Shown here: positions 6,470 through 50,440 of the stretch, piece after piece
Position numbering within the stretch: the first letter of the stretch is position 1
Layout of the letters: the number at the start of each line of letters is the position of its first letter
Made by a program: the position numbers and the translations under genes
Notes under the pieces: generated by a model
What the model saw: the letters and a program-made list of their open reading frames with translations, nothing else
Told to the model about the DNA's origin: nothing
Databases searched by the model: none
Assembly (NCBI GenBank): GCA_030428355.1
Contig: JAUIBL010000020.1
Coordinates: 1-64,000 of the forward strand
Length of the DNA stretch: 64,000 nt
Source: Alphaproteobacteria bacterium
GTDB lineage: Bacteria; Pseudomonadota; Alphaproteobacteria; Rhodobacterales; Rhodobacteraceae
Direction of reading: 5' to 3'

Positions 6470-6511
6470 CGGATTTTTCGAAAAATCCGACGGTTTCCTT
6501 CGAAGGAAATC
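6470..6511. repeat. Pair of TTCGAA-centred palindromes (locus 1 of 6)
   Basis: Two loopless palindromes lie side by side: 6470-6489 (perfect, half-site CGGATTTTTC) and 6492-6511 (half-site GGTTTCCTTC, one G-T pair). Their centres are 22 bp apart. They sit between divergent genes, so a terminator role is unlikely here. Similar pairs occur at 8952, 15210, 16855, 19975 and 22015. Confidence 0.8.
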
Positions 6512-8951: not shown

Positions 8952-8996
8952 CCGGACGCGTCGACGCGTCCGGGATGTTCAGTCGACTGAACATCC
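8952..8996. repeat. Pair of GTCGAC-centred perfect palindromes (locus 2 of 6)
   Basis: Palindrome 8952-8973 (22 bp, half-site CCGGACGCGTC) shares one base with 8973-8996 (24 bp, half-site GGATGTTCAGTC). Both are perfect, have no loop, and their centres are 22 bp apart. They begin 8 bases after the uvrD stop and precede the metZ leader, so here they could form 3'-end hairpins. Confidence 0.85.
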
Positions 8997-9022: not shown

Positions 9023-9051
9023 TTGACCGGCGAACCGTGAAGGCTTAAAGC
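9023..9051 (+). promoter_or_regulatory. Putative metZ promoter
   Basis: TTGACC (9023-9028) is followed after 17 bases by TAAAGC (9046-9051). The -35 is good and the -10 is weak. Its position would start transcription at the 5' end of the SAM-II aptamer, which supports the call. Confidence 0.4.
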
Positions 9052-9057
9052 ACCGAT

Positions 9058-9108
9058 GTGGCGATTTGTTACCGGATTGCGGGCCACGTTAAACATGCCG
9101 CTAAAAGG
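9058..9108 (+). promoter_or_regulatory. SAM-II riboswitch (metA motif) controlling metZ
   Basis: The segment begins GTGGCGATTTG, pairs GTGGC with GCCAC (9083-9087), and continues GTTAAACATGCCGCTAAAAGG. The paired ends, the TTAAA stretch and the terminal GCTAAAAGG are the conserved parts of the SAM-II H-type pseudoknot. SAM-II is known from alphaproteobacterial methionine genes and turns expression off when S-adenosylmethionine is abundant. The next gene is metZ, which fits. Confidence 0.9.
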
Positions 9109-9115
9109 TCAGCCG

Positions 9116-9151
9116 AAAGCCCCTTTCGCTTGGCCGGAACGGGGCTTTTTT
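9116..9151 (+). terminator. Terminator in the metZ leader
   Basis: AAAGCCCC (9116-9123) pairs with GGGGCTTT (9141-9148), followed by three more T residues. It is a convincing intrinsic terminator right after the SAM-II aptamer and before the metZ start. Control by transcription attenuation is therefore likely. Confidence 0.75.
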
Positions 9152-15209: not shown

Positions 15210-15251
15210 ACGCGGTTTCGAAACCGCGTCACGGGCTTTCGAAAGCCCGTG
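15210..15251. repeat. Pair of TTCGAA-centred perfect palindromes (locus 3 of 6)
   Basis: 15210-15229 (20 bp, half-site ACGCGGTTTC) abuts 15230-15251 (22 bp, half-site CACGGGCTTTC). Centres are 21 bp apart. The second is nearly the same as the middle palindrome at 19998-20019, which differs by one base per half-site. Confidence 0.85.
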
Positions 15252-16854: not shown

Positions 16855-16899
16855 CCACGCTGCGTCGACGCAGCGTGGTCTTTCCATCGATGGAAAGAC
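16855..16899. repeat. Palindrome pair between convergent genes (locus 4 of 6)
   Basis: 16855-16878 (24 bp, half-site CCACGCTGCGTC, GTCGAC core) shares one base with 16878-16899 (22 bp, half-site GTCTTTCCATC, ATCGAT core). Both are perfect, centres 22 bp apart. They fill the 57-base gap between the 3' ends of the LLM gene and valS, so a bidirectional transcription stop is possible, although there is no U-tract. Confidence 0.85.
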
Positions 16900-16903
16900 G
16901 CGC

Positions 16904-19876
16904 CTAGCCCAGTTCGGCCAGCCGGTCCACCGCCTCTTGCAACTGCGCCGCCTCGTCTTCGCGCGCGGCCAGGTTGGCGCGGGTTTCCTCGACCACCTCT
17001 TCGGGGGCGCTCTCGACGAATTTCGGGTTGCCCAGACGCCCCTTCATCCCGCCTATTTCCTTGGCGAGTTTCTGGAGCGACTTCTCAAGCCGCGCCTTTT
17101 CCTCGGCCACGTCGATGATGTCCGCAAGCGGCAGGCCAAAGGTTGCGCCTTCCATCGGCACGGTCGCGCAGCCTTTCGGGAAGGCATCGACAATGGTCAG
17201 CTCGTCGATCCGCGCCAGACGCTTGATCAGCACCTCGTTGCGGTCCCACGCGGCACGGGCGGCATCGCCCATATCCTTGACCACCAGCGGCAGGTAGAGC
17301 CCCACCGGCACATGCATCTGTTGACGCGCGGACCGGATGCCCTCGATCAGACCGATCACCCAGTTCATCTCGCGGTCGGCCTCGGCGTCGATCAGATCGT
17401 CGCCATAGGTCGGCCAATCGGCATGCACGAGCATCTTCGACCGGTCGCCTGTCACCGCCCAAAGCTCTTCGGTGATGAAGGGCATGATCGGGTGCAGCAG
17501 GATCAGACACTGGTCGATGACCCACGCCATGGTCGCCTTGGTTTCCGCCGTCTGCGGGCCGTCATCCAGCAGCAGCGGTTTGGAGAATTCCACGTACCAG
17601 TCGCAGACCTTACCCCAGACAAAGCGATAAAGCGCCGCCGCCGCGTCATCGAAGCGGTAGGCGGCGAGGGCTGCGTCCACTTCGCCGCGCACGCGGGCGG
17701 TCTCGCCAATGATCCATTGGTTCACCGTCGCGGTGGCCTTGGGGATGTCGGCGCTGGGAGTCCGGTTTTCGAACACGCCGTTCATCTCGGCAAAGCGCGT
17801 CGCGTTCCAGAGCTTCGTGCCGAAGTTCCGGTAGCCCGCAATCCGCTGCATGTCGAGCTTCAGAACCCCGCCAAGCGAGGCCATCGCCGCGTTGGTGAAG
17901 CGCAGCGCGTCCGCACCGTATTCGTCAATGATCTCAAGCGGATCGACCACGTTGCCCAAGCTTTTGGACATCTTCTTGCCCTTGGCGTCGCGGACGAGGC
18001 CATGCAGGTAGACATCCTTGAACGGGATCTGATCGACCACCGCCAATTGCATCATCATCATCCGGGCGACCCAGAAGAACAGGATGTCCTGCCCGGTCAC
18101 AAGAACGGATGTCGGGAAGTATTTCTTCAACTCCGGCGTCTGTTCCGGCCAGCCCAGCGTCCCGATGGGCCAGAGACCGGACGAGAACCACGTGTCGAGG
18201 ACGTCGGGGTCGCGGGTCAGTTCAACACCGTCACCCGCCATTGCCTGTGCTTCGGCCTCGGTCGGCGCGCAGTACTGATTGCCGTCAGCATCGAACCAAA
18301 CCGGTATCTGATGCCCCCACCACAACTGGCGCGAGATGCACCATGGTTCGATGTTTTCGAGCCAGTGGTAATAGGTCCGCTCGCCCGATTCCGGCACGAT
18401 CTTGACCTCGCCCGAGCGCACGGCCTCCAGCGCGGGGCCGACGATCCTTTCGGCATCCACGAACCATTGGTCGGTCAGCATCGGTTCGATGACCACCTTG
18501 GAACGGTCGCCGAAGGGCTGCATGATCGGCTTTGCTTCGACCAGCGGAACAAGGTCTGAGCCGTCATCCTCGGGCGCGACCCGAGGATCTCCGTCCGTTG
18601 AGGTTGCCGGGTCCAGCCCGGCAATGACGGCCTTCTTCGGGGCCGCACCCAACCGCGGATCGTCCGCGCGGGTCATCACCGCCAGACCCTCGGCCGTGAT
18701 CTCCTCCACAACCCGCTTGCGCGCTTCGAACCGGTCCAGCCCGCGCAGGTGATCGGGGACAAGGTTCAGCGCGTCGGTCTCGGCCTCGGTCAGCGTGCGT
18801 TCGCCGCGCGCAACGGCACCGGCGATGATCGCAGCCTCTTCGTAAGGCGCGCCGTCGTCGCGCATGTGGGCCTTGGTGTCCATCAGGCGGTAGCACGGAA
18901 TGTTGCCACGCTTGGCGACACCGTAGTCGTTGAAGTCATGCGCGCCGGTGATCTTCACTGCACCCGAGCCGAAGGTGGGATCGGGGTATGCATCGGTGAT
19001 GATCGGGATCAGGCGGCGGTGTTCTTTCGGTCCAACCGGAATCTCGCAGAGTTTGCCGACGATTGGCGCGTAACGCTCATCCGACGGGTGAACGGCAACC
19101 GCGCCATCGCCCAGCATGGTTTCCGGGCGCGTGGTGGCGATGGAGATGTAGTCGCGCTCTTCTTCGAGCACGACGTTCCCATCCTCGTCCTTTTCGATAT
19201 AGGTATAGGTGCCCCCCCCCGCGAGCGGGTATTTGAAGTGCCACATATGGCCGGGGTTTTCGATATTCTCGACCTCGAGATCGGAAATCGCGGTCTCGAA
19301 ATGCGGGTCCCAGTTGACCAGCCGCTTGCCGCGATAGATCAGGCCCTTGTTGTACATGTCGACAAAGACCTTGATCACCGCGTCATGGAAGTTCGGCCCG
19401 TTGCCCTTGTCCGGGTCGCCCGCAGCACCGCCCATGGTGAACGCCTCACGCGACCAGTCGGCGGACGCGCCAAGGCGCTTGAGCTGCCCGATGATCGTGC
19501 CGCGCGACTTGACCTTCTGCTGCCAGACGCGGTCCAGAAACGCCTCGCGCCCCATCTCGCGGCGCGACGGCTCGCCATTGGCGGCCATTTCACGTTCGGT
19601 GACCATCTGCGTGGCGATACCCGCGTGGTCGGTGCCCGGCTGCCAGAGCGTGTCAAAGCCGCGCATTCGGTGCCAGCGGACCAGAATGTCCTGCAACGTG
19701 TTGTTGAACGCGTGGCCCATGTGCAGCGAGCCGGTCACGTTGGGCGGCGGGATCATCACGCAGAATGTGTCCTCGCGCGAGGCATTGGCGCCTGCCTTGA
19801 AGGCCCCGCTCTCTTCCCACGCCTTGTAAAGCCGCGCCTCGGCCTCGCTTGCGTCGAATGTCTTTTCCATCGCCAT
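16904..19876 (-). CDS. valS: Valyl-tRNA synthetase
   Basis: Class I aminoacyl-tRNA synthetase of 990 residues that charges tRNA-Val. [13 protein letters not shown] near 45-55 is the HIGH-type motif, and KKMSKSLGN near 637 is KMSKS. The editing domain lies between, and the anticodon-binding and coiled-coil C-terminus ([20 protein letters not shown]) closes the protein. About 23 residues near 416-439, reading [23 protein letters not shown] and split here only for comment, come from an in-frame palindromic repeat (18561-18630). I chose ATG 19876 (MAMEKTF); the frame is open upstream to 19915, but that extension is not family-like. Confidence 0.95.
18561..18630. repeat. Palindromic intergenic-type repeat inserted in frame in valS
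   Basis: The 70-bp element begins CCGTCAT and ends ATGACGG (inverted termini). It contains two hairpins: TCCTCGGG/CCCGAGGA and TTGCCGGG/CCCGGCAA. This 'GTCATCCTCGGGC...GACCCGAGGATC' type of repeat is common between genes in alphaproteobacteria. Here it is read through without a stop, encoding [10 protein letters not shown]-like peptide in a surface connection before the [13 protein letters not shown] segment of ValS. Confidence 0.8.
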
Positions 19877-19974
19877 GGGGTGTGTTCCCGCTGCAAGTGT
19901 CTTGTTGCGCCTCATCTAGCGAAAGGGCGGGGAAAGGAAAACCCAAGGCAGGTGGGAAAATGGTGGGGCCGGGA

Positions 19975-20041
19975 AAGGTCCTTCGAAGGACCTTGCGCAC
20001 GGGATTTCGAAATCCCGTGTCACCGCGTTTCGAAACGCGGT
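19975..20041. repeat. Triplet of TTCGAA-centred perfect palindromes (locus 5 of 6)
   Basis: Three perfect loopless palindromes follow each other: 19975-19994 (half-site AAGGTCCTTC), 19998-20019 (CACGGGATTTC) and 20022-20041 (ACCGCGTTTC). Centres are 24 and 23 bp apart. They lie upstream of valS and downstream of the CcsR array terminator, both on the minus strand. Confidence 0.85.
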
Positions 20042-20053
20042 CCCCCGGACAAG

Positions 20054-20130
20054 AAAAAACGGTGGTGCCAAGGGAGGAGAGGCACCACCGTTTCGAGTTT
20101 ACGGCATCCAGGGAGGAGGAGAGGACGCCG
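20054..20130 (-). ncRNA. CcsR-type (cuckoo) RNA, unit 4, with terminator
   Basis: Two stem-loops on the minus strand. 20102-20130 has an 8-bp stem with one mismatch and loop UCUCCUCCUCCCU. 20057-20093 has a 13-bp stem with the shorter loop UCUCCUCCCUU and runs into a T6 tract (complement of 20054-20059), so it doubles as the intrinsic terminator of the whole locus. The CCUCCUCCC loop motif defines the CcsR/cuckoo family. In Rhodobacter sphaeroides CcsR RNAs are stress-induced and affect C1 and glutathione metabolism. Confidence 0.85.
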
Positions 20131-20160
20131 ATCCAGTGTGGGCCTGGGCCCAAAATCTGT

Positions 20161-20233
20161 GACGGTGACACCAGGGAGGAGGAGAGGTGCCACCGTCGAG
20201 TTCACGGCGCTCAGGGAGGAGGAGAGAACGCCG
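20161..20233 (-). ncRNA. CcsR-type (cuckoo) RNA, unit 3
   Basis: Two stem-loops on the minus strand: 20205-20233 (stem CGGCG/CGCCG plus one pair) and 20161-20197 (GACGGTG/CACCGTC, a mismatch, then CACC/GGTG). Both loops read UCUCCUCCUCCCU. A small linker hairpin (GGGC CTGG GCCC on the plus strand) separates it from unit 4 and may be where the primary transcript is cut. Confidence 0.85.
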
Positions 20234-20263
20234 AGACCGTGTGGGCCTAAGCCCGAAACCTGT

Positions 20264-20336
20264 GACGGTGGCACCAGGGAGGAGGAGAGGTACCACCGTC
20301 GAGTTCACGGCATCCAGGGAGGAGGAGAGGATGCCG
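20264..20336 (-). ncRNA. CcsR-type (cuckoo) RNA, unit 2
   Basis: Two stem-loops on the minus strand: 20308-20336 (perfect stem CGGCATCC/GGATGCCG) and 20264-20300 (GACGGTGG/CCACCGTC, mismatch, ACC/GGT). Both loops read UCUCCUCCUCCCU. The stems vary between units by paired changes while the loops do not, which is strong evidence for RNA function. Confidence 0.87.
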
Positions 20337-20368
20337 AGACCGTGTGGGCCGGTTGGCCCGAATTCTGC

Positions 20369-20442
20369 GACGGTGACGCCAGGGAGGAGGAGAGGCGTCA
20401 CCGTCAAGTCCGGAACATCCAGGGAGGAGGAGAGGATGTCCG
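20369..20442 (-). ncRNA. CcsR-type (cuckoo) RNA, unit 1
   Basis: First unit after the ccaF1 coding region on the minus strand. 20411-20442 pairs CGG/CCG and ACATCC/GGATGT with one bulged base. 20369-20405 has a perfect 12-bp stem (GACGGTGACGCC/GGCGTCACCGTC). Both loops read UCUCCUCCUCCCU. It starts about 50 bases past the ccaF1 stop, so it is probably cut from the ccaF1 transcript. Confidence 0.87.
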
Positions 20443-20491
20443 AGCCGGTGTGGCGAGGGGCCCCGCGGGGCGCATGCTCACCAAATGTCGA

Positions 20492-20710
20492 TCAGCTTTC
20501 GTAAGCTGCCTGATAGGCAACGCGCTTGATCTCGGATTGGTTCAATCCCAGATCGCACAATTCGCGGTGCGAGAGCGCGCTGAGTTCGCGCAGGGTGTCG
20601 CGGTAGATCTTGCGGCGTGCCGCTTTGGCGCGGTAGTTCGCGATCAGGGTGTTGACCCGATCCACGAGGCCGGTGCCGGCTCCGCCCAGTGTGTTTGTTT
20701 CGTAAGCCAT
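20492..20710 (-). CDS. ccaF1: DUF1127 protein, CcaF1 homologue (RNA-binding factor of CcsR RNAs)
   Basis: 72 residues, MAYETNTLGGAGTG then a basic, helical C-terminal DUF1127 region (about 30-68) ending in LCDLGLNQSEIKRVAYQ. In Rhodobacter sphaeroides the gene in this position (RSP_6037, CcaF1) encodes a small RNA-binding protein that helps mature CcsR RNAs and affects RNA turnover. The order DUF1127 gene then four CCUCCUCCC RNA units is the same here, which makes the assignment firm. An ATG start is used; the Shine-Dalgarno is weak. In Rhodobacter the promoter is RpoH-dependent. I see no clear RpoH promoter here, but two PhaR-like sites lie upstream. Confidence 0.88.
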   Translation of the reverse strand: MAYETNTLGGAGTGLVDRVNTLIANYRAKAARRKIYRDTLRELSALSHRELCDLGLNQSEIKRVAYQAAYES

Positions 20711-20769
20711 CTGTCTGCTCTGTTCGAATTTGCGTGTTTCCGTTCGCTTGAGACAAAGATAGGCGAATG

Positions 20770-20812
20770 CTGCAGTTGCACAATAGAGATTTGTTTCAAC
20801 GCTGCTATGCAG
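20770..20812. promoter_or_regulatory. Two PhaR-like sites between ccaF1 and mrp
   Basis: GCTGC-TAT-GCAGC (20801-20813, core CTGC-N3-GCAG at 20802-20812) matches the PhaR operator of Paracoccus/Rhodobacter exactly. A second, weaker site CTGC-AGTT-GCAC is at 20770-20781. They are 60-100 bp before ccaF1 and 125-165 bp before mrp. The same motif occurs in the phaP, phaZ/phaC and phaR promoters of this window. Confidence 0.55.
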
Positions 20813-20936
20813 CAATTGCATAGGCGAAGTGGTTCAAATTTGTGCGTTTTGCGCTAACGGGCCTAATTCCGATGCAGGCGGTTGAAGCCTAACGGCAGGC
20901 CTGCCATTTCTTTTACAGAAAGAGGAAAGGTTGGGC

Positions 20937-22004
20937 ATGTCCGTAACGTCCGAGCAGATTCGCGCCGCCCTGTCCCGCGTGGCGATTCCCGATGGCGAAA
21001 CCCTCATTTCGGCCGATCTGGTGCGGGCGATTCAGATCGACGGCTCTGTTGTGCGGTTTGTCATCGAAGCGCCCTCGCCCGAGATCGCCCGTCTGATGGA
21101 ACCTGTGCGCAAGGCCGCCGAGGCGGTTGTGGCGGACTTGCCCGGTGTGTCGCAGGTCACAGTCGCTCTGACAGCGCATGGCCCGGCCGCTGCCCCGCCC
21201 AAGGGGCTGAAGATCGGCGGACATATGAAACCGCAGGCGGGATCGCTGAAACCCTCGGGTGTGGCGCGCATTCTGGCGATTGGCTCCGGCAAGGGCGGGG
21301 TGGGCAAATCGACCGTGTCCTCGAACCTTGCAGTGGCGCTGGCGCGGGCGGGGCGTCGTGTGGGGTTGCTGGATGCCGACATCTACGGGCCCAGCCAACC
21401 CCGCATGATGGGGGTTTCCGAAAAACCACAGAGCCCGGATGGCACCACGATCATCCCGCTCCGAGCGCATGGCGTGACGGTCATGTCCATCGGTCTGATG
21501 CTGCCCGAGGACAAGGCTGTCGTCTGGCGCGGGCCGATGCTCATGGGGGCGTTGCAGCAGATGCTCAGTCAGGTGGCCTGGGGCACCTTGGACGTGTTGC
21601 TGGTCGATCTGCCCCCCGGCACCGGCGATGTGGCGATGACGCTCTGCCAGAAAGCGCAGGTGACCGGGGCCATCGTGGTCTCGACGCCACAGGATGTGGC
21701 GCTGCTGGACGCGCGCAAGGCCTTGGACATGTTCGAGACGTTGAAAACGCCGGTGCTGGGGTTGATCGAGAACATGGCCGTCTACACCTGTCCGCATTGC
21801 GGCGGGCAAAGCCATATCTTCGGATCGGGCGGTACCGTGGCCGAGGCGTCGGCCCGTGGTGTGCCGCTCTTGGCGCAACTGCCGCTGGATCTGGACACGC
21901 GGCTGGCGGGCGATGGCGGAGTGCCGGTGGCGGCAGGCGACGGGCCGATGGCCGAGGCCTATGCCAAGCTGGCCGACGGGTTGATCAAGGGCGGTATGGC
22001 CTGA
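20937..22004 (+). CDS. mrp: Fe-S cluster carrier/assembly ATPase Mrp (ApbC)
   Basis: 355 residues. An N-terminal MIP18/DUF59-like domain (about 1-85) precedes a Mrp/NBP35 P-loop ATPase. The deviant Walker A GKGGVGKS is at about residue 118 and the cluster-binding CPHCG pair near 285. It binds and transfers 4Fe-4S clusters in the cytoplasm. ATG 20937 has GAGGAAAGG upstream and fits better than the in-frame TTG at 20931. The gene diverges from ccaF1 and ends beside a palindrome pair. Confidence 0.93.
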
Positions 22005-22014
22005 GGCGGGCGAA

Positions 22015-22055
22015 CGATGCGTCGACGCATCGCGACGCTCCGTCGACGGAGCGTC
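22015..22055. repeat. Pair of GTCGAC-centred perfect palindromes (locus 6 of 6)
   Basis: 22015-22032 (18 bp, half-site CGATGCGTC) and 22034-22055 (22 bp, half-site GACGCTCCGTC), centres 21 bp apart. They lie in the short gap between convergent mrp and tonB; the second one includes the last bases of the tonB stop codon. Confidence 0.85.
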
Positions 22056-27048: not shown

Positions 27049-27062
27049 TGTAGGGTGATCCG

Positions 27063-27232
27063 TCGCGGCAGGTCTCCTGACTTGCGGGTCGTTGCGTGTG
27101 TCGGGCCTTCCCGGTTTCCCAGTGGCATGTGCCGAACACGCTCGCCGCTTACAGTTGCGGGGGCAGTCGTGGGTTTGCACCACGTTCCCTTTTCACCGGG
27201 GGTTGCCCGGACCGTGACAGGTTCGGCGTACA
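27063..27232 (-). promoter_or_regulatory. Cobalamin riboswitch
   Basis: On the minus strand the order of conserved parts is clear: GGGAACGTGGTGCAAACCC, ACTGCCCCCGCAACTGTAAG, GCCACTGGGAAACCGGGAAG and finally AAGTCAGGAGACCTGCC (the B12 box region). This is a full aptamer with its usual segments. It represses the btuC-to-tonB operon when adenosylcobalamin or another cobalamin is plentiful. Confidence 0.96.
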
Positions 27233-35717: not shown

Positions 35718-36938
35718 ATGGATGGTGGTCGCATTGGGCTGACGGTGCCGGAGATCGGCGGCGCTCCGCGGGCGGGGCTGTGTACTGATTGCGGCGTGTC
35801 GCGCATGGGTGATGGCCGTGGATGCGGCAAGGCCTGCCAGTTCATTCAGCCCGATTACGAGACACTTGAGCGGTCCGTGCATGGACGGGTTGCCGGGGAG
35901 GGAGATGAGGCGTTCTTCGGTGTGGCGCAGGCCATGTACCGGGCGCGGCTGGAGCCTGCCGCCGAGGGGGCGCAATGGACCGGCCTGACCACCGGGTTGG
36001 CGGCCGAGTTGCTGCGGGCCGGGGCGGTGGATGCGGTGTTGGCCACCGCGCCGGACCCGTTGGACCGCTGGAAGCCGCTGCCTGTCATCGTGACCGAGGC
36101 CGACCAGATGGCCCAGTGCCGGGGAATGCGGATGGGGTATGGGCCTCTGCTGGCCTTGCTGGAGCCAGCGCGCGCCGCAGGGCATCGACGCATCGCTGTC
36201 GTCGGCGTGCCCTGTCAGGTCTACGCGCTGCGGGCGCTGGAGGCGGAGCTGGGCTTCGACGAGATCACGGTGATCGGCACGCCCTGTTCCGACAACACGA
36301 CAACCGAGAATTTCCACGCCTTCCTCGCGCGGCTGGACGACAGGCCGGAGACCGTGTCCTATCTTGAGTTCCGCGCGGATTACCGGGTGGAGTTGCGGTT
36401 CGATGACGGACGCAAGCCGCGCTTCGTGCCATTCCTGAAACTGCCGCTGTCCGACCTGCCGGCGGATTTCTTTCCGATGACCTGCAAGACCTGCGTCGAT
36501 TACACCAACCGGCTGGCGGACATCACCGTGGGCTATATGGGCGGTGACGGCGATCAGTGGCTCATCGTGCGCAATGCGCGCGGGGCTGCGGTGCTCGACC
36601 GGCTTGGCGACCGCGTGGTGCGGCGCGACCTGACCGACAAGGGCAAGCGCGAGGCGGCGGTCAAGGGTTTTATGGTGAACACCGAGCGCGCCGCCGGGGG
36701 CTTGCCGCTGCGGCGGATGCCTGACTGGGTGCGGCCCATCGTGGCGTGGTTGCAGCCGCGCACCGGGCCGCGCGGGCTGGAATTCGCCCGCGCGCGGGTC
36801 GAAATGAAGGCGATCGAGACCATTCTGCATCTCAGGCGGGCACATCCGGCGCGGATCAAGAACATGGTGCCACGCCATGTTTGGCGAGTCGCGGCCCGCT
36901 ATGGTCTGATGCCGACACAGGACGAAACGCGCGATTGA
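35718..36938 (+). CDS. bciB: BciB-type 8-vinyl reductase homologue (F420-hydrogenase beta-subunit family)
   Basis: 406 residues of the FrhB/FdhB (coenzyme F420 hydrogenase beta) family. The layout follows BciB, the ferredoxin-dependent 3,8-divinyl (proto)chlorophyllide 8-vinyl reductase: a Cys-rich N-terminus (GLCTDCG...CGKAC), AQWTGLTTGLAAELL near 90, VVGVPCQVYALRALE near 165, GTPCSDN near 190 and MTCKTCVDYTNRLADI near 255, with the Cys residues that bind Fe-S clusters. AAGGAG precedes the ATG by 8 bases and a PpsR-type operator lies just upstream. Other F420-family reductases are possible, but operator and layout favour bacteriochlorophyll synthesis. Confidence 0.7.
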   Translation: MDGGRIGLTVPEIGGAPRAGLCTDCGVSRMGDGRGCGKACQFIQPDYETLERSVHGRVAGEGDEAFFGVAQAMYRARLEPAAEGAQWTGLTTGLAAELLRAGAVDAVLATAPDPLDRWKPLPVIVTEADQMAQCRGMRMGYGPLLALLEPARAAGHRRIAVVGVPCQVYALRALEAELGFDEITVIGTPCSDNTTTENFHAFLARLDDRPETVSYLEFRADYRVELRFDDGRKPRFVPFLKLPLSDLPADFFPMTCKTCVDYTNRLADITVGYMGGDGDQWLIVRNARGAAVLDRLGDRVVRRDLTDKGKREAAVKGFMVNTERAAGGLPLRRMPDWVRPIVAWLQPRTGPRGLEFARARVEMKAIETILHLRRAHPARIKNMVPRHVWRVAARYGLMPTQDETRD

Positions 36939-50249: not shown

Positions 50250-50257
50250 GCGGCGGG

Positions 50258-50440
50258 AACCACGGCAACCGTGCGGTTCTCTCATTCCCGAGGACCTGTA
50301 TATACAGGTGGGTGTCAGGTAACCGGACCAGGGCCCGGACAGAGCCAACTCCCTCGGAATTGCTTAAGGCCACCGGAATGCAACCTGTCACGCGTAGCGC
50401 AGAAACCCGCCTGACCCCGAGGTAGGCGCGACAGGGCCGT
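50258..50440. ncRNA. Candidate structured RNA (6S-like?) between a membrane protein and mmcB
   Basis: The stretch is non-coding but rich in complementary parts. GGTGGGT (50307-50313) can pair with ACCCGCC (50405-50411), and GTGTCAGGT (50312-50320) with ACCTGTCAC (50383-50391), giving a rod with internal loops. ACCTGTAT/ATACAGGT (50294-50309) is a perfect palindrome, and CACGG/CCGTG forms a 5' hairpin. A rod with loops would suit 6S RNA, but I cannot fix the strand or family from sequence alone. Confidence 0.35.

Follow-up and report, generated by a model that had tools for sequence, protein, structure and literature searches.

Loops that mimic an anti-Shine-Dalgarno (anti-SD) sequence raise two questions wherever they occur in series behind a small protein gene: what do they act on, and who switches on such operons outside Rhizobiales? 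We analysed one locus of this kind from a marine bacterium, on the minus strand of the window, meaning the whole 64-kb stretch of DNA under study, together with its counterparts in related genomes. The relatives give a testable answer to both questions, namely that the loops would target the starts of uptake genes, first among them that of a TRAP permease, and that the operon would be switched on by an LsrB/VtlR-type regulator.

The ccaF1-like gene and its hairpin array

The locus begins with a ccaF1-like gene (20492-20710, minus), an ORF of 72 codons running from 20710 down to 20495 with its stop at 20494-20492. Its product matches the DUF1127 family of Pfam (PF06568, 37.2 bits at a cut-off of 23.3), which together with the ORF call bears out the 72-residue minus-strand DUF1127 gene of the original prediction, and a CcaF1-like protein is found at E ≤ 1e-3 in 129 of 149 genomes sampled across the family. 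The nearest named relatives of this protein are Marivita species, and the window is therefore assigned to Marivita or close kin; the proteins of L223-L233, some of which come from MAGs, are 79-90% identical to it. The divergent neighbour on the plus strand (20931-22004) is an Mrp/ApbC-type NTPase and the other neighbour is valS (16904-19915, minus), both named from their Pfam families.

The first of eight stem-loops begins 50 nt past the ccaF1 stop. They form four pairs at a unit spacing of 103-105 nt; in each, a short hairpin A with an 8-bp stem precedes a longer hairpin B, whose stem has 12-13 bp. From the sequence, the fold and a motif search, hairpins A and B lie on the minus strand at 20413-20441 (loop 20421-20433) and 20368-20406 (loop 20381-20393) in unit 1, at 20308-20336 (loop 20316-20328) and 20264-20300 (loop 20276-20288) in unit 2, and at 20205-20233 (loop 20213-20225) and 20161-20197 (loop 20173-20185) in unit 3. 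Hairpin A of unit 4, placed in the same way, is at 20102-20130 (loop 20110-20122), and its hairpin B at 20054-20093, placed by sequence and fold, is the terminator with its U-tract. Seven loops are identical, with the 13 nt UCUCCUCCUCCCU (a motif also written TCTCCTCCTCCCT), while the eighth, on the U-tract hairpin, is an 11-nt form, UCUCCUCCCUU (also given as TCTCCTCCCTT; 20070-20080). In the own assembly, which comprises 3.56 Mb in 83 contigs and is 87% complete, CTCCTCCTCCCT has 7 matches, every one in the array, and its reversed control has none in the same 87% complete assembly. The stretch folds far better than shuffled sequence (z = -11.9; 0 of 100 shuffles as good), and the final stem passes into T6. 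The sequence, the folding and the motif search thus confirm the eight stem-loops in four pairs, the seven identical 13-nt loops plus one shortened form and the T6 on the last stem, all claimed beforehand. The linker hairpins that were claimed with them stand in part: three small GGGC..GCCC hairpins are readable in the sequence, of which the first alone remains a local structure in the minimum-energy fold.

Between the array terminator and valS lies one of six clusters scattered over the window, in each of which two or three perfect palindromes of 16-24 bp, with TTCGAA, GTCGAC or ATCGAT at the centre, stand next to each other (6470-6509, 8952-8996, 15210-15251, 16855-16899, 19975-20041 and 22015-22055, the fifth being the one beside the array). 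These clusters hold 13 of the 16 perfect palindromes of this size in the window, TTCGAA is over-represented in it (36 against 15.6 expected), and of 13 Marivita-type loci, four (L223, L226, L228, L234) have similar palindromes behind the array. Three other RNAs in the window exceed their Rfam thresholds, a cobalamin riboswitch (27050-27231, minus), a SAM_alpha riboswitch (9048-9124, plus) and 6S RNA (50253-50408, minus).

At the array itself, an Rfam scan at curated thresholds gives no match. With thresholds lifted, the CcsR1 model (RF02791) aligns from end to end with each of the four units, at 20365-20446 (43.4 bits, E 4.1e-9 in a 1-kb search), 20260-20340 (42.9 bits), 20157-20237 (41.1 bits) and 20054-20138 (29.5 bits), all on the minus strand. 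The Rfam comparison proposed in the original prediction therefore came out mixed, since each of the four units is matched at full length and none reaches the CcsR1 gathering score of 65.3 bits, the best staying at 43.4. The ar14 model (RF02344) likewise gives the array 47.1 bits, under its gathering score of 58.8. Among 18 related loci scanned, the CcsR1 gathering score was passed by two (L018 with 106.2 and L030 with 73.2 bits) and that of ar14 by two others (L014, L022). Such sub-threshold scores are unsurprising, since in this family it is the loops that are conserved and not the stems, and stem divergence is reported to weaken covariance models on RNAs of this sort (PMC3927594).

The locus is arranged with a short DUF1127 gene directly upstream on the same strand and paired hairpins that carry a fixed CCUCCUCCC loop, shortened in the eighth, on variable stems. 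The same order, to which the original prediction had drawn a parallel, is found in Rhodobacter sphaeroides, where the 71-aa DUF1127 gene ccaF1 (RSP_6037) is reported to be co-transcribed with four homologous RNAs, CcsR1-4, in its 3′ UTR, from an RpoHI/RpoHII stress promoter up to an end terminator and with processing by RNase E (PMC10253847, PMC8625941). The two loci differ in their stem and linker sequences as well as in the sub-gathering CcsR1 score of the window, and a LysR-type box, present in the window promoter, goes unmentioned in the accessible portions of the R. sphaeroides reports (PMC10253847, PMC8625941). The cuckoo RNAs, or CIN1 loci, share with the window the fixed CCUCCUCCC loop on divergent stems (PMC3927594, from the portion at hand) and often an adjoining short DUF1127 gene, as cited in PMC10253847. 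Copy number differs between them and the window, and no difference in kind was found. The cuckoo family and its CIN1 locus reportedly go back to Reinkensmeier and Giegerich in 2015. As for the rhizobial ar14/NfeR1 sRNA, it is described as having the identical loop motif in several hairpins and as silencing an mRNA at its start site, which is what we predict for the window array; unlike the latter it has three hairpins and its own sigma70 promoter (PMC10746234, as far as the available part of that paper goes), and the text of that paper does not contain the word DUF1127, whereas the window array follows a DUF1127 gene. The window locus is thus a previously undescribed case of the known CcaF1-CcsR/cuckoo kind, with no formal RF02791 match, and the array very probably belongs to the CcaF1-CcsR (cuckoo/CIN1) type together with its general anti-SD mode of action.

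Variation of the array among relatives

Eight loops are not special, as array size varies. Among the best 30 CcaF1 loci, the own one included, 29 could be parsed (L017 could not), and 2-14 loop motifs follow the gene in 27 of them and none in 2. For the 12 parsed Marivita-type loci a script counted 3, 4, 4, 4, 5, 5, 6, 6, 8, 8, 8 and 8 hairpins, with 13 of the 41 named loci left unparsed; the odd counts look like units in which the script overlooked one hairpin. The largest array seen, in Pelagimonas varians (L238), has 16 hairpins. The shortened form is the last loop in 11 of the 12.

Compensating changes of the stems around fixed loops, another claim made in advance, are seen across the own locus and 13 Marivita-type loci, where pairing lies above that of shuffled stems at 7 of 8 stem positions (34 distinct stems of less than 10 bp). 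Positions 3, 4 and 8 are paired in 31, 32 and 30 of the 34 against 26.0, 24.7 and 19.3 expected, and each of these positions shows three or four types of pair; at position 7, pairing among these 34 short stems is no higher than expected. The loops are kept while the stems covary and the counts shift, and therefore it is the loop that selection holds, leaving the number and the stems free to move. The differences in hairpin number inside a single genus also amount to a natural experiment on loop dosage.

Promoter and candidate regulator

Two tandem copies of TGCA-N6-GCAT lie upstream of ccaF1 in the promoter alignment, at 20807-20820 and 20767-20780 (minus). This is the LysR-type box through which LsrB is reported to activate the rhizobial sRNA NfeR1, itself a carrier of the same CCUCCUCCC loops (PMC10746234, in the part available). 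Both copies are common to the aligned Marivita promoters. Over the family, the box occurs on either strand in 61 of 64 upstream 300-nt regions of CcaF1-type genes, where about 0.02 per 300 nt would be expected by chance, and 45 of the 64 carry it twice in forward orientation at a distance of 39 or 40 nt. L026, L028 and L037 are left out of these counts, of the promoter elements read in relatives and of the VtlR-box counts below; the counts run over loci related by descent and are not independent events. The whole window, both strands taken together, holds four boxes against 3.86 expected, and three of the four are in the ccaF1 promoter.

Promoters of the RpoHI/RpoHII type have a TTG at -35 and a CCATNT-like element at -10. 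By eye, the own promoter reads TTGTGC...CCTATCTT, with a -35-like TTG overlapped by the second box and the -10-like CCTATCTT next to it, and relatives often have CCCATNTT; the TTG under box 2 and CCTATCTT could be such an RpoH-type promoter.

A second LysR-type regulator comes into view through the Brucella box CAATGCAGCCATGCA of VtlR, which is described as the primary regulator for proteins of the DUF1127 kind and as activating the sRNA AbcR2 (PMC12595884, from the part at hand). The 15-mer TGCATAGCAGCGTTG at 20797-20811 (minus) has three mismatches to this box and lacks the Agrobacterium core GCAT-N3-TG-N3-T (boxes from PMC12595884, PMC7486931). Of 24 promoters, 22 contain the Brucella box in one orientation with no more than three mismatches; among 874 control windows, a few of which may clip the promoter itself, 12 do. 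The exact Agrobacterium core, on the other hand, is mostly not kept in CcaF1-type promoters, occurring in only 3 of the 64 upstream regions, none of them the own one. In the VtlR-DUF1127-AbcR circuit of Brucella and Agrobacterium, a LysR regulator likewise activates DUF1127 genes and an sRNA (PMC12595884, PMC7486931, both seen in excerpt); there the protein genes and the sRNA are separate units, whereas in the window they form one apparent operon.

Read from the promoter sequences, the LsrB box is the firm part of the case for a regulator, and control of the ccaF1 promoter by a regulator of the LsrB/VtlR type seems to us somewhat probable. Among the literature matches listed, we found no report that links CcaF1/CcsR1 with LsrB/VtlR, and in the sole listed paper naming both sides, LsrB appears a single time, among the references.

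Start sites of uptake genes as candidate targets

For transcription, processing, regulator, target and direction of effect we infer the following course. One stress-responsive promoter, whose activator is probably an LsrB/VtlR-type LysR regulator bound at the two tandem boxes, would give a single transcript that opens with the mRNA of the small DUF1127 protein, which is rich in arginine, and continues with four sRNA units of two hairpins each, the last of which ends in the terminator hairpin. RNase E, aided by CcaF1, would cut it into unit-sized sRNAs, a step carried over from R. sphaeroides. Each unit would offer two anti-Shine-Dalgarno-like loops, which may pair with GGGAGGAGG-type starts of uptake and metabolic genes and block their translation.

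The own assembly has 15 copies of the 9-nt complement of the loop, GGGAGGAGG: seven are the antisense of the array and eight lie elsewhere. Four of these eight sites lie 4-6 nt before an ATG, and all four genes are parts of uptake systems: TctC (L040/L077), DctP (L041/L079), DctQ (L042/L081) and another DctQ (L050). No ORF of at least 30 aa starts behind the remaining four sites. For six own candidates the predicted duplexes of loop and SD reach -17.7 to -22.2 kcal/mol (loop strain and accessibility ignored), and a 16S tail gives -12.8 to -15.4 kcal/mol at the same six. The starts of valS and mrp give -6.8 and -7.6 kcal/mol with the CcsR loop, and the own ccaF1 start binds neither partner well (-4.7 with the loop, -4.8 with the tail). 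That the ccaF1 start avoids GGAG so as to spare itself was considered and rejected, as its absence in all but 1 of 26 loci is indistinguishable from the window background (GGAG at 3 of 34 first ATGs and at 9 of 34 when any start is counted).

The uptake-gene pattern was noticed post hoc, and we therefore examined the congeners. Across 17 Marivita genomes, GGGAGGAGG with an ATG 3-8 nt behind it was found 91 times, a figure that includes the array antisense, and the reversed control pattern 10 times. Of 45 passing ORFs of at least 60 aa, 44 entered the set A4 (from 72 loci, many of them orthologs and not independent), and these include 20 DctQ, 14 of them from one ortholog group and 6 from another, besides 3 TctC, 1 DctP and 1 ABC permease; L356 (array antisense), L325-L327 and the own dctQ, dctP and second dctQ sites are omitted from A4. 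Transporter enrichment behind GGGAGGAGG as a family-wide rule was rejected, given that transporters make up 4 of 18 ORFs of at least 100 aa behind it and 3 of 19 behind the control SD AAAGGAGGT (30 loci with each start, one per genome; calls from Pfam for ten ORFs and by eye for the others). In the own genome, 9 of 39 ORFs behind GGAGGAG are transporter parts; behind AAGGAG there are at least 10 among 80 ORFs, which is not a significant difference (p = 0.18). The former set had 40 ORFs of at least 60 aa, of which the spurious-looking L070 (72 aa) was omitted from the scan; the latter tally is nine confirmed parts plus a second Sulf_transp member, with 25 of 150 families listed.

The best predicted target of the array is the first dctQ gene, which stands between the end of a flavin reductase-like ORF and dctM (identities by eye). 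A homolog is present in all 17 Marivita genomes, 58% identical in G155 and 76-100% in the others, and its SD is GGGAGGAGG in 15 of the 17, the remaining two having GGGAGGAAG and GGAGGAGG, while the spacer letters behind the SD vary. In four genomes without an exact-motif array, the letters before the dctQ homolog range from no match to GGGAGGAGGA, with starts that are not resolved. No family-wide excess of transporters, p = 0.18 in the own set and varied dctQ letters where arrays are lacking together mean that the target claim rests on one genus.

The leader of this dctQ was aligned over the 74 nt up to and including the start (L411-L426, set A3, with L429 of the 58% identical G155 omitted); the own copy lies on G000:C65 near 36295-36368. 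It has a first hairpin with a long A-rich loop and a second with a purine loop. A hairpin CACCGGC-loop-GCCGGTG between the flavin reductase-like ORF and dctQ shows changes on both sides at 3 of its 7 pairs, and in a further hairpin upstream one pair is changed on both sides. The covariation score is 0.167 against 0.094 for shuffled alignments (0 of 500 as high); the number of both-side-changed pairs, 4 against 1.8, is matched by 20 of 500 shuffles, and the pair types by 92 of 500. A GGAG in a hairpin loop 13-15 nt above the SD is found in 14 of the 17 genomes under one script setting, and by eye L426 has GAGGAG in a larger loop. No Rfam family matched the own leader.

Could this conserved leader be unrelated to CcsR, with GGGAGGAGG being no more than a strong SD and the hairpin above it a commonplace stabilising structure between genes? 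SDs are conserved in any case, GGGAGG-type letters also stand in two of the four genomes without exact arrays, and the dctQ leaders fold no better than shuffles (z of -1.0, -1.5, +0.4 and +0.3). By script the hairpin is missing in three of the 17 Marivita genomes (L425, L426, L429), and no GGAG-loop hairpin is found at tctC (L331, L334, L342) or at the second dctQ (L347, L350), which have the same SD. A complementarity of 9-10 nt nevertheless exceeds what the 16S tail needs, the dctQ hairpin covaries, and among 92 control or mixed genes run under the same script settings only 1 has a hairpin with a GGAG loop in the 70 nt above its SD, this one being the own dctP, whose SD is also GGGAGGAGG. 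An unrelated leader is accordingly a serious contender that we would put slightly short of probable. Our preferred reading, that dctQ is a direct target of the CcsR loops and is silenced at its start site, is a prediction from one genus for which we would claim tentative and not yet even confidence.

A dctP gene of another TRAP cluster, with the same SD, shows a GGGGAG loop 31-33 nt upstream of it in 4 of 5 Marivita genomes, on stems that change and are unrelated to those of dctQ; the loop is absent in L326 and in the 62% identical L328. This gene is cited in a further reading, in which the array and a TRAP leader (a GGAG hairpin loop, then the SD (A)GGGAGGAGG) would work as lock and key, one loop of a two-loop unit docking by a kissing loop and the other closing the start, with the LsrB-type LysR box turning on this module in Rhodobacterales as it does an anti-SD sRNA in Rhizobiales. 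We regard this reading as speculative and rather unlikely.

A different role for the loops would be that of a protein sponge or scaffold, titrating CcaF1 or another RNA-binding protein, with start-site pairing incidental. Fixed loops on variable stems in shifting copy number would suit a titrated binding site, and the R. sphaeroides CcaF1 is reported, in the material available, to bind RNA and to affect CcsR maturation as well as many other RNAs. We consider it improbable as the main function, since half of the off-array GGGAGGAGG sites in the own genome sit just before an ATG and since mutation of the same loop motif in NfeR1 is reported to abolish target silencing (PMC10746234, part of the paper seen). 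The NfeR1 mutants and the conserved dctQ start together favour sequestered mRNA ribosome sites, the first of the two possibilities named in the original prediction. That the hairpins are only a structured 3′ UTR, which protects or ends the ccaF1 mRNA without a function in trans, would agree with a terminator-like last hairpin and an array directly after the ORF, yet it is most improbable, as a stability element needs no identical CUCCUCCUCCC loops on changing stems and characterised relatives are reported, in the excerpts at hand, to act in trans on flhR and ntrBC.

Two minor observations concern other genes with starts of this type. Both a PDH complex E2-like gene (L067, C39:94622) and an E3-like dihydrolipoyl dehydrogenase (L072, C49:64041) are among the 39 ORFs with GGAGGAG starts, which agrees, post hoc, with the reported effect of CcsR on pyruvate dehydrogenase in R. 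sphaeroides; start-site conservation of aceF orthologs was also tried and rejected, their SDs varying and the best loop match being 4-9 nt (25 of 30 loci listed), with nothing special about it. Finally, a Cys-containing protein of 38-49 aa (MCKNEGNPCPGC...) has GGGAGGAGG as its SD in four Marivita genomes (L360, L369, L380, L391).
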